Source of the DNA: Trinickia soli
GTDB lineage: Bacteria > Pseudomonadota > Gammaproteobacteria > Burkholderiales > Burkholderiaceae
Reading direction: 5' to 3'
Length of the DNA: 64,000 nt
Assembly (NCBI RefSeq): GCF_002879855.1
Contig: NZ_PNYB01000020.1
Span: 1-64,000 of the forward strand
Part shown: in pieces, positions 32,638 to 50,193 of the stretch
Layout of the letters: each line of letters begins with the position of its first letter
Position numbering within the stretch: position 1 is the stretch's first letter
Position numbers and translations under genes: made by a program
The notes under the pieces: generated by a model
Seen by the model: the letters and a program-made list of their open reading frames with translations, nothing else
What the model was told of the DNA's origin: nothing
Database searches by the model: none

Positions 32638-32722
32638 TGGTGCCGACGGCGAGACTCGAACTCGCACAGCTTTCGCCACTACCCCCTCAAGATAGCGTGT
32701 CTACCAATTTCACCACGTCGGC
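32638..32722 (-). tRNA. tRNA-Leu (anticodon GAG)
   Basis: 85 bases including an encoded CCA. The acceptor stem starts GCCGACG and is matched by CGTCGGC before A-CCA. The anticodon loop is TTGAGGG between CTATC and GGTAG, which gives anticodon GAG for CUC/CUU codons. A long variable arm typical of class II leucine tRNAs and the GTTCGAGTC T-loop are present. It lies between secG and nuoA, the usual place in Burkholderia. Confidence 0.97.
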
Positions 32723-42763: not shown

Positions 42764-44308
42764 TCAAACGCCTTGCGGATTAACCTTCTCCACGTTCGCA
42801 TTGAGCTTGTTCAGCGCCGAAATATAAGCCTTCGCCGAAGCCGCGACGATATCAGGGTCGGTGCCGACGCCATTCACGATACGCCCGCTCTTGGACAGCC
42901 GCACCGTCACTTCGCCCTGCGCCTGCGTCCCCGTCGTGATCGCGTTGACCGAGTACAGCAGCAACTCCGATCCGCTGCCCACCTCGCCCTCGATCGCGTT
43001 CAGCGTGGCGTCGACAGGCCCGTTGCCGCGCGCCTCGCCCACCGTCTCCTTGCCGTCGACGGAGAACACCACGCGCGCGTGCGGGCGCTCGCCCGTCTCG
43101 GAATGCTGAGCGAGCGAGATGAACTTGAAGTGCTCACGTTCCTGCGCCGCGGCCGACTCTTCCGTGACGATCGCGATGATGTCTTCGTCGAAGATCTCGG
43201 CCTTGCGATCGGCCAGCTCCTTGAAGCGCGCGAACGCCTGGTTCAACTCGGCCTCGCTCTCGAGCTGGATGCCAAGCTCCTGCAGGCGCTGCTTGAATGC
43301 ATTGCGGCCCGACAGCTTGCCCAGCACGATCTTGTTGGCGCTCCAGCCCACGTCTTCGGCGCGCATGATTTCGTACGTATCGCGCGCCTTGAGCACGCCG
43401 TCCTGGTGAATCCCGGACGCATGCGCGAACGCATTGGCCCCGACGACAGCCTTGTTCGGCTGGACGACGAAGCCCGTCGTCTGCGAAACGAGCTTCGAGG
43501 CAGGTACGATCTGCGTCGTGTCGATGCCGACGTCGAGACCGAAGTAGTCTCGACGCGTCTTGACCGCCATCACGATCTCTTCGAGCGCCGTGTTGCCCGC
43601 GCGCTCGCCCAGGCCGTTGATCGTGCATTCCACTTGCCGCGCGCCGCCGATCTTCACCCCGGCCAGCGAGTTCGCCACGGCCATGCCCAAATCGTTATGG
43701 CAATGCACCGAGAAAATGGCCTTGTCCGAGTTCGGAATCCGCTCGCGCAGCGTCTTGACGAGGTTGCCGTAGAGCTCGGGGACGCCATAGCCCACCGTAT
43801 CGGCAATATTGATCGTCGTCGCGCCTTCGTCGATCACGGCCTCGAGCACGCGGCACAGGAAATCCATATCGGAACGGCTGCCGTCCTCAGGCGAGAACTC
43901 GACATCGTTCGTGAACTTGCGCGCGAAGCGCACCGCAAGGCGCGCCTGTTCGTACACCTGGTCGGGCGTCATGCGCAGCTTCTTCTCCATATGCAGCGGA
44001 GACGTCGCAATGAACGTGTGGATGCGGAAGTGATCTGCCGGCGCGAGCGCATCGGCGGCCCGTTGGATGTCCTTGTCGTTCGCGCGCGCGAGCGAGCAGA
44101 CGGTGCTGTCCTTGATCAACGAAGCAATCGTGTTGATGGCGTCGAAATCGCCGTTCGAACTGGCCGCGAAACCGGCCTCGATCACGTCGACCTTCATCCG
44201 TTCGAGCTGTTTCGCGATACGGATCTTCTCTTCTTTCGTCATCGACGCGCCCGGCGATTGCTCGCCGTCACGCAACGTCGTGTCGAAAATAATCAGCTTG
44301 TCTGCCAT
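42764..44308 (-). CDS. leuA: 2-isopropylmalate synthase
   Basis: 514 residues, the first committed enzyme of leucine synthesis, condensing acetyl-CoA with 2-oxoisovalerate. The HMGL TIM barrel has [15 protein letters not shown] (metal-binding Asp), [19 protein letters not shown] (metal-binding HxH) and [14 protein letters not shown]. The C-terminal regulatory LeuA-dimer domain (about 390-514) holds the leucine feedback site. The ATG at 44308 is used. An independent promoter and a leucine-rich leader peptide precede it by 127-250 bases, so it is probably regulated separately from pssA upstream. Confidence 0.97.
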
Positions 44309-44434
44309 GTCATGTCTCCAGGGGGACGTTTGCTTTGCAAATATCAAATACGAATTGGGGGCGGAATACGGAATTCGGGTGTCACCACCGCTGGCGACGC
44401 CGGACAACGAACGAGGCAGACGGGGCGAAAACGA

Positions 44435-44518
44435 TCAGCGCGGTAGGCGCGCTAGCGCTAGCGCGCATAGAGGCGCACCGGCGAAGAGGGGGAGGCGGGG
44501 GAAGGTCAAAATCGACAT
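44435..44518 (-). CDS. Predicted leucine-rich leader peptide of leuA (attenuator)
   Basis: A 27-residue open frame: ATG at 44518, TGA at 44435-44437, with 7 Leu. Four of them, at positions 17, 20, 22 and 25, use CTA, a rare codon in such high-GC genomes. A -10 element ends 7 bases upstream of the ATG, so the mRNA probably starts at or next to the ATG and the peptide would be read from a leaderless message. A 20-base palindrome (44447-44466) overlaps the CTA codons. The 126 bases between the leader and leuA contain a small hairpin (44381-44386 with 44393-44398) but no classic U-run, so the downstream mechanism is unresolved. Confidence 0.7.
   Translation of the reverse strand: MSILTFPRLPLFAGAPLCALALARLPR
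44447..44466 (-). repeat. 20-base perfect palindrome inside the leuA leader frame
   Basis: GCGCGCTAGCGCTAGCGCGC reads the same on both strands and can form an 8-bp hairpin with a 4-base loop in RNA. It overlaps two of the four CTA leucine codons of the leader peptide, so a ribosome stalled there would keep it open. Confidence 0.8.
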
Positions 44519-44525
44519 GTCGCCG

Positions 44526-44554
44526 ACTATAGCGGCATTCGGGCGTTCGCGCAA
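44526..44554 (-). promoter_or_regulatory. Candidate sigma-70 promoter of leuA
   Basis: On the minus strand TTGCGC (-35, 44549-44554) and TATAGT (-10, 44526-44531) are 17 bases apart. The distance from the -10 to the leader ATG is 7 bases. It lies between pssA and leuA, so leuA need not depend on read-through. Confidence 0.65.
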
Positions 44555-49828: not shown

Positions 49829-49975
49829 CGTTCACCTTTCGAATTTTCGGCAAAAAATTGATCGGGTGCTCTCTGCCGGGCTTGTGGCTCGGGTTCAAGC
49901 GGCGCGTCCACTTTGACAGGCGAGCTTCATGGGCCCACCCAAAAAGAGACAAGTCACTTATGTTGCGAACCGGAA

Positions 49976-50004
49976 ACCTTATCGGTTGTACGGACTCAGG
50001 TCAA
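49976..50004 (-). promoter_or_regulatory. Candidate sigma-70 promoter of ilvBNC
   Basis: On the minus strand TTGACC (49999-50004) and TAAGGT (49976-49981) are separated by 17 bases. The predicted leader before the ilvB ATG is about 140 bases. Confidence 0.5.
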
Positions 50005-50117
50005 GTGAAAATTCGTCAGACGGTCGCCCCCGTTGGCCCGAAACCCGTCGTTTTCCGCTCGAAAACAACGCGCCGCGCGCCAATCGACGCCCCAAACGTC
50101 CCAACTATCTCGAAAGT

Positions 50118-50146
50118 TTGCTAGCATCCGCGGGTTTTACGATATT
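50118..50146 (+). promoter_or_regulatory. Candidate sigma-70 promoter of the ECF sigma factor gene
   Basis: TTGCTA (50118-50123) and GATATT (50141-50146) are 17 bases apart, about 48 bases before the ATG at 50194. Weak by sequence; assigned by eye. Confidence 0.35.
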
Positions 50147-50193
50147 TTTTCAATCGATTACGGCTCAGGTGGATACTCACTCCGCCCCCTCGG

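Follow-up and report, generated by a model that had tools for sequence, protein, structure and literature searches.

The leuA gene in the window (the whole 64,000-nt stretch of Trinickia soli DNA analysed here) is preceded by a short leucine-rich ORF that very likely belongs to a leuA leader-peptide attenuator (a leuL) of Trinickia, Burkholderia, Paraburkholderia, and Caballeronia; Rho most likely terminates transcription, possibly with help from a hairpin (c:d) located inside the ORF (Table 1). The leader extends from an ATG (44518-44516, minus strand) placed 7 nt after the -10 box to a TGA stop (44437-44435), which is followed after 126 nt by the leuA ATG. Its seven Leu codons comprise TTG, CTC, CTC, and four CTA at codons 17, 20, 22, and 25. 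The Leu codons are thus clustered in a short ORF that directly precedes a leucine gene, which is the arrangement expected of a leu attenuator.

Table 1. Features of the leuA leader region, with coordinates in the window.
Feature	Coordinates	Strand	Basis
Leader ORF, 27 codons, MSILTFPRLPLFAGAPLCALALARLPR, probably leaderless	44435..44518	-	Translation and conservation
Putative leader promoter: -35 TTGCGC (44554-44549), 17-nt spacer, -10 TATAGT (44531-44526)	44526..44554	-	Sequence and conservation
Hairpin a:b inside the ORF (GGUGCGC:GCGCGCU), CTA codon 17 in loop	44460..44479	-	Pairing conservation
Palindrome of 20 nt, GCGCGCTAGCGCTAGCGCGC, b:c alternative pairing	44447..44466	-	Sequence
Hairpin c:d inside the ORF (UAGCGCG:CGCGCUG), CTA codon 25 in loop, stop codon in 3' arm	44436..44454	-	Pairing conservation
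C/U-rich, A-poor tract right after the stop, candidate Rho loading site	44402..44434	-	Composition
Hairpin H2 (GCGUCGCC-AGC-GGUGGUGA), no U-run close behind	44382..44400	-	Motif and pairing
SD-like GGAG before leuA	44319-44316	-	Sequence
leuA, 2-isopropylmalate synthase	42764..44308	-	ORF; family matches

The Leader ORF and Its Promoter

An earlier note on this DNA had described the promoter hexamers with their spacing, the 27-codon frame with its four CTA codons, and a 20-base palindrome over two of these codons; all were confirmed on the minus strand, the palindrome overlapping CTA codons 20 and 22. CTA, which the note had called very rare in high-GC Burkholderiaceae, accounts for 23 of 1553 Leu codons (1.5%) in the window's 45 long ORFs, and at this frequency the binomial probability of finding at least four CTA among seven Leu codons is ~1.6e-6.

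The leader promoter is absent from the list returned by a generic promoter scan of the window, because its -35 hexamer (3/6 matches to TTGACA) is below the minimum of at least 4/6 matches per hexamer required by the scan. We accept it as a putative promoter on the grounds of conservation rather than on the generic scan. The name leuA was taken over from the earlier note; of the 299 genomes of the family, 278 have a match to the gene at E <= 1e-100. By eye, the same-strand genes upstream of leuA resemble ilvB, ilvH, ilvC, psd, and pssA, and the region before the ilvB-like ORF lies at 49829-50190 on the minus strand.

Conservation in the Burkholderiaceae

The region was matched in all 11 genomes of the genus that were searched, including that of the window itself. 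For the Burkholderiaceae, 229 leuA upstream regions were compared after identical ones had been merged and one further region in which the start was unplaced (G232) had been dropped. By a strict rule (a TATAGT-like box followed by an ATG at a distance of 5-8 nt, and at least two CTA codons), a leader is present in 176 of these distinct regions: all of those from Trinickia (11/11), Burkholderia (32/32), Cupriavidus (31/31), Ralstonia (16/16), and a genus that includes Trinickia terrae (g14; 3/3); most of those from Caballeronia (26/29) and Paraburkholderia (25/37); 3/20 from Pandoraea; 1/4 from a genus containing Mycetohabitans (g8); 28/41 from named contigs; and none from two small genera (0/3 and 0/2). 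We infer the genus names Ralstonia (g25) and Pandoraea (g11). The comparison across Burkholderiaceae had been proposed in the earlier note, which named lack of conservation as grounds for abandoning its reading; the frame and the CTA codons proved to be conserved.

The promoter geometry is equally constant among the 176 leader-bearing regions, with TTGC at the -35 position in 171, a 17-nt spacer in 171, and either 7 nt (129 regions) or 6 nt (47 regions) between the -10 box and the ATG. Since the strict rule itself asks for CTA, codon usage was recounted under a rule free of this requirement. In the 100 leaders of the window's clade that have at least three Leu codons, 51.5% of these codons (371 of 720) are then CTA, and in 47 Cupriavidus and Ralstonia leaders the share is 70.6% (161 of 228).

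The strict rule detects no leader in 12 of the 37 regions from Paraburkholderia or in 17 of the 20 from Pandoraea, and the leader thus appears to be dispensable in some lineages. A group of Paraburkholderia regions (L047, L033, L046, L032, L036, L038, L039, L043), together with named loci such as L220, L221, L229, and L231, fails the rule; leuA in this group mostly begins with ATGTCC, several of its members retain the TATAGT box, and most have no H2. This group is likely to represent a natural loss of the attenuator. In many of the Pandoraea-like regions (g11, L196-L212), a short ORF (of the MISGAIPAPGLP... type) is retained directly after a TATATT box; these ORFs have few Leu codons, CTA is nearly absent from them, and they look as if a leader had lost its sensor.

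RNA Structure of the Leader and the Downstream Tract

Two tandem hairpins are embedded in the ORF. Among 43 representatives, 96.0% of cells are paired in a:b (leader positions 40-46 with 53-59), compared with 15-71% in slid registers, and 98.7% in c:d (positions 65-71 with 77-83), compared with 15-49%, both registers having been taken from the fold of the window's own leader, towards which the pairing counts lean. Hairpin a:b also has nine extra pair types, and double changes at two pairs. CTA codons 20 and 22 are placed in and beside the junction between the two hairpins. The palindrome provides an alternative pairing, b:c, which is mutually exclusive with both a:b and c:d. The earlier note had centred its scheme on this palindrome. 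Pairing b:c is kept to a considerable degree (89.7%), although A faces C at one of its pairs in 13 of 42 sequences; the tandem hairpins are better conserved, and the palindrome was rejected as the main functional structure.

The tract that follows the stop codon is distinctive in composition, in a way that would suit Rho loading: across 97 leaders from the window's clade, its first 40 nt average C 38, G 23, T 34, and A 5%, versus C 27, G 25, T 16, and A 32% in 47 Cupriavidus and Ralstonia leaders. Beyond it, the H2 motif (in many relatives as the variant GGUGGCGC) is found in 118 of 119 regions with a leader versus 14 of 28 without, some of the latter possibly hiding leaders that the rule missed; H2 thus appears mostly to travel with the leader. 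H2 is 87.8% paired, but slid controls reach 74-80%, and its register is therefore not clearly better. We considered H2 as an intrinsic terminator and discarded it, as no U-run closely follows it in the aligned regions. Pairing between the end of the leader and the 3' arm of H2 (95-96%) was set aside as uninformative, being equalled when the register is slid by 3 (97 and 97.7%). A consensus fold includes a putative four-pair long-range helix between the Leu-codon stretch of the leader and a site near leuA; any pyrimidine-rich stretch would pair with an SD box.

In searches against Rfam, the sole match at gathering score in the whole window was a tRNA at 32641-32722, with no leader-peptide family; the leader region at E values up to 10 gave three matches, all below gathering, and three Cupriavidus and Ralstonia regions gave no match at gathering.

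A Predicted Classical Attenuator in Cupriavidus and Ralstonia

The leaders of Cupriavidus and Ralstonia (e.g., MISRQTLIARTTLGGLLGHQVGTRAR) encode a peptide beginning M[IL]S... and ending mostly in VGTRAR, VGTRA, or a close variant. They resemble the window's leader in promoter type, in the 7-nt gap to the ATG, in their place before leuA, and in having a CTA pair between complementary arms; they differ from it in the peptide and in possessing a complete antiterminator/terminator with a U-run. The terminator (CGCCCCGGC...GCCGGGGCG-UUUU) is present in all 47 regions of the two genera, and the terminator scan reported sites in 31/31 Cupriavidus and 16/16 Ralstonia regions. The antiterminator links codons just after CTA-CTA to the 5' arm of the terminator. 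In a set of 53 leaders (the 47 regions plus six named contigs picked for having the terminator), it retains 8-9 of its 9 bp throughout, with all nine pairs in 48, and takes the form CAGGUCGGG with CCCGGCCUG in 46.

Judged by its sequence, then, the leader of these two genera is a complete ribosome-mediated leuA attenuator of the classical kind, and it is for this reason that the reading of the window's leader as an attenuator finds its strongest support here. Separately, a member of the family with a small genome (L320, G042) has a Leu leader with three CTA codons and a strong intrinsic terminator (CCCCAGC...GCTGGGG-TTTTT), so that the use of a terminator varies inside the family.

How Transcription Might Be Stopped in the Window's Clade

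A scan of the 119 regions of the window's clade revealed no strong U-run terminator common to them. For these genera we propose a scheme in which Rho is the terminating agent. RNA polymerase would start at or within ~1 base of the leader ATG, allowing ribosomes to load at the leaderless 5' end and to translate the Leu-rich peptide, the control codons of which are mostly CTA, decoded by a minor tRNA-Leu. If charged tRNA-Leu were plentiful, the ribosome would clear both hairpins of the ORF and depart at the stop codon; the C/U-rich tract would then be exposed, c:d and H2 would form, and transcription would stop before leuA. Rho is the first candidate for this step because a C/U-rich tract follows the stop codon, and c:d might assist as a pause site or weak terminator. 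If leucine were short, the ribosome would stall at CTA and sit on c:d, the terminating conformation would not be reached, and leuA would be transcribed. CTA codons 20, 22, and 25 are only 2-7 codons before the stop, and a stalled ribosome would therefore cover the hairpins themselves, unlike in the classical scheme, where it covers a distant upstream segment. The weak point of the proposal is the means by which a ribosome halted at CTA might deny Rho access to a tract located downstream of the stop codon. Gating of Rho by a leader ribosome has its model in tnaC. The tna operon is named as Rho-dependent in a passage of PMC1262725.

With these modifications, the leucine-leader reading of the earlier note is partly supported: it is right in kind, as the leader is conserved, translated in appearance, very probably leaderless, and enriched in CTA, whereas the role given to the palindrome and the terminating step require revision.

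Rather than Rho, c:d itself could terminate transcription. In the window, c:d is followed by CGTTTTCG, a short interrupted U stretch, which makes a weak terminator-like site, and the terminator scan picks up this combination in 8 of the 11 Trinickia regions (0.2 in shuffled sequences). The corresponding numbers, with shuffled values in brackets, are 5/32 (3.8) for Burkholderia, 7/25 (2.0) for Paraburkholderia, 12/26 (1.2) for Caballeronia, 1/3 (0.4) for g14, and 9/22 (2.8) for named contigs. For the clade as a whole, terminator-like sites were detected in 42 of 119 regions (~10 in shuffles), and in 35 of these the site is at c:d; six of the 12 Caballeronia sites are away from c:d, and the one inspected uses part of the 3' arm of H2. 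These sites exceed chance but are weak and not clade-wide. Purely intrinsic attenuation, by which c:d plus the UGAUCGUUUUCG stretch would be the terminator and b:c an antiterminator that forms when the ribosome stalls at Leu codons 9-12, is a rival reading that we consider unlikely. The excess over shuffles, most evident in Trinickia and Caballeronia, favors it, as does the maintenance of b:c and its incompatibility with c:d. Against this, the U stretch is interrupted and begins only after GAUCG, the Burkholderia and Paraburkholderia counts are low, b:c is broken at one pair in almost a third of sequences, and the stop codon is inside the 3' arm of the hairpin, such that full translation would melt it.

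A second departure from the Rho scheme would involve no termination at all. The conserved GUCUGCC at 44421-44415 is perfectly complementary to GGCAGAC in the first bases of leuA (44306-44300), and the Burkholderia and some Caballeronia counterparts change in step, a pattern that is suggestive but unexceptional in rank. In translational attenuation, which we regard as distinctly unlikely, GUCUGCC would pair with AUGGCAGAC until a stalled ribosome refolded the RNA and leuA was translated. Duplexes between leader and leuA start average -13.8 kcal/mol, compared with -10.7 kcal/mol for shuffled tracts (sd of shuffled means 0.22; 118 regions); most Burkholderia, in which leuA starts with AUGACAGAC, carry GUCUGUUGU instead; many Caballeronia with AUGGCAGCAGAC carry GUCUGCU; and a passage of PMC1262725 describes a base stem between Leu codons and SD in the LEU element of actinobacterial leuA. 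However, the true start ranks only 3rd-98th of 135 leuA windows (68/118 rankable regions), which makes the pairing unexceptional. When starts were swapped, two leader types preferred their own but the Burkholderia type did not (-14.2 vs. -14.8 and -14.0). Moreover, the partner is missing in 13 regions with AUGGCAGCAGAC, and the element starts 13 nt beyond the leader stop, where a ribosome stalled on CTA would not cover it.

The part that the proposed Rho scheme assigns to codon supply can also be questioned, as CTA might merely follow from RNA structure, as part of CUAG in loops and junctions, with the peptide mattering rather than the codons. All four CTA of the window are in hairpin loops, arms, or the junction between them, and leaders elsewhere in the order mostly use CTG. 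Early CTA codons nonetheless occur outside the hairpins, at codon 9 (G003), codons 9 and 12 (G007, G009), codon 11 (G041 and G154, Burkholderia), and codon 12 (G142, Paraburkholderia), and CTA-CTA is kept in 53/53 leaders of the Cupriavidus/Ralstonia type, in which the RNA is different; this explanation is accordingly improbable.

Evidence for Translation of the Leader and a Probable Leaderless Start

In an alignment of 58 sequences, the four distinct gap types inside the ORF are all multiples of 3, versus 10 of 47 downstream, and the differences among eight Trinickia leaders of the same length number 83, 33, and 132 at codon positions 1, 2, and 3. Over codons 2-13 in 43 representatives, variability is 0.396, 0.419, and 0.470 at the three positions, a small third-position excess, and the 3' half of the ORF varies less than the 5' half at all three. 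The lower variability of the 3' half could also be explained by RNA structure and the clade-wide excess is small, but the gap pattern, the third-position excess within Trinickia, and the recurrence of a Leu-rich peptide at the same place in Cupriavidus and Ralstonia, with a different RNA structure, make it highly improbable that the ORF is untranslated and that only a structured 5' untranslated region is conserved.

The leader mRNA is very probably leaderless. With only 6-7 nt between the end of the -10 box and the ATG, there would be no room for a Shine-Dalgarno sequence on RNA made from that promoter; the spacing is held across genera, and the geometry of the promoter fits a start at the leader ATG. 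Leaderless mRNAs are reported from this family, for B. cenocepacia in sections of PMC4603805 and for C. metallidurans in sections of PMC7563307; the main texts of both papers were searched for the term leuA, which is absent from them. The earlier note had considered a leaderless start unusual here, a view at odds with the leaderless leader peptides reported for Sinorhizobium and Streptomyces in portions of the literature cited below.

Leaders Across the Order and Beyond

A LeuA match was obtained in 167 of 200 genomes of the Burkholderiales, from which 67 upstream regions of 39 families (two of them from the window's own family) were sampled. By a rule that was written after the regions had been inspected (a short leader with a Leu-rich end), 38 of the 67 regions, from 26 families, have a leader; the same rule averaged 0.8 leaders (at most 3) when the sequences were dinucleotide-shuffled and gave 0 in reverse complements. 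The -10 box is 6-9 nt before the ATG in 35 of the 38, and outside the window's family TTGC occupies the -35 position in 30 of the 34 leaders with a -10 box. Nineteen of the 38 contain LLLR-x-AR, and the typical end reads GGC CTG CTG CTG CGC NNN GCG CGC stop, the last codons being spanned by a short GCGC stem. Of the Leu codons in these leaders, 60% are CTG, a common codon, and 7% CTA; the reliance on the rare CTA codon is thus a feature of the Burkholderiaceae. The emphasis of the earlier note on CTA as control codon therefore stands for the leaders of this family, in which it is the commonest Leu codon, but not for the order.

In 37 order-level leaders, the 30 nt after the stop contain C 40 and G 13%, and nearer leuA C 29 and G 29%. 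Terminator-like sites occur in four of the 37, compared with 2.6 in shuffles, and pairing of the Leu run with the region after the stop is stronger than in shuffled sequence in only 26. Folding energies of the terminal hairpin have z values from -3.4 to +0.4, mostly -0.3 to -2, and energy alone is no proof.

We tentatively suggest, as a possibility that we would not yet favor, that much of the Burkholderiales share one ancestral leaderless leu attenuator without an intrinsic terminator, consisting of a fixed TTGC-17-TATA[GT]T promoter 6-7 nt before the ATG, a Leu run with a hairpin over the last codons, and a C-rich, G-poor tract after the stop that would serve as a Rho loading site, access to which would be controlled by the leader ribosome when at or close to the stop; Cupriavidus and Ralstonia would later have swapped Rho for an intrinsic terminator. 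The recurrent LLLR-x-AR C-terminus might, in addition, function as an arrest peptide during its own synthesis. This leader type was not seen in 27 class-level regions outside the order (from 193 genomes with a match). In some class-level regions (L366, L371, L376, L382, L383, L386, L387), leuA is preceded by short Leu-rich ORFs with an LLP or LLLP end (LLLPLGR in one case), which are possible candidates for a second family of leu leaders.

Relation to Known Leucine Leaders and Implications

As in the leuL of Salmonella and E. coli, a Leu leader peptide with CUA control codons precedes leuA; in the Salmonella leu attenuator, replacement of three CUA by CUG lowered sensitivity (Carter 1986, as cited in a passage of PMC1183508). 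Unlike enterobacterial leuL, the window's clade has no strong shared U-run terminator, the hairpins are inside the ORF and overlap the stop codon, and the leader is very probably leaderless. The first and last of these points, together with the Leu-rich peptide, recall actinobacterial leuA leaders, since Streptomyces LeuL1, located before leuA, is described in part of PMC8079986 as leaderless and as having no typical Rho-independent terminator. However, the actinobacterial LEU element is portrayed in an excerpt of PMC1262725 as a conserved pseudoknot, the base stem of which joins Leu codons to the SD, whereas the conserved parts here are the tandem ORF hairpins, the C/U tract, and H2; by eye, the actinobacterial peptides and those of the window's clade have only leucines in common. 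A putative Leu leader of Corynebacterium leuA is also mentioned in a passage of PMC4046766.

The trpL RNA of Sinorhizobium begins at the leader-peptide ATG and yields a trans-acting peptide (peTrpL), according to portions of PMC7298713; the window's leader would be another small leaderless mRNA that regulates a biosynthesis gene. The Sinorhizobium system differs in concerning tryptophan and in the transcription terminator of the scheme given in those portions. Campylobacter LeuL is a 28-aa peptide encoded before leuABCD, the final part of which has five rare Leu codons (CUA, CUC, CUG), and similar leaders are noted for most Epsilonproteobacteria with leucine genes (excerpts of PMC3847290). The Campylobacter leaders were sought by ribosome binding site (PMC3847290, in part), which implies that they are not of the leaderless type, and their initiation signal is treated in a passage of PMC11955535. 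We found no report of a Burkholderiales leuA leader in the open-licence literature, most subscription papers being outside that search. Leaderless leader peptides are known already from elsewhere; what appears to be new here is the combination of a (very probably) leaderless leu leader with ORF-embedded hairpins and no clear shared terminator.

If the proposed reading is true, several well-studied genera have a conserved small ORF before leuA, and an amino acid attenuator of a large bacterial order would rely on leaderless translation as a fixed feature. Two sister clades would have wired the same sensor to two different ways of stopping transcription, which would allow the gating of Rho by a leader ribosome, and the repeated use of leaderless leaders by attenuators, to be tested.
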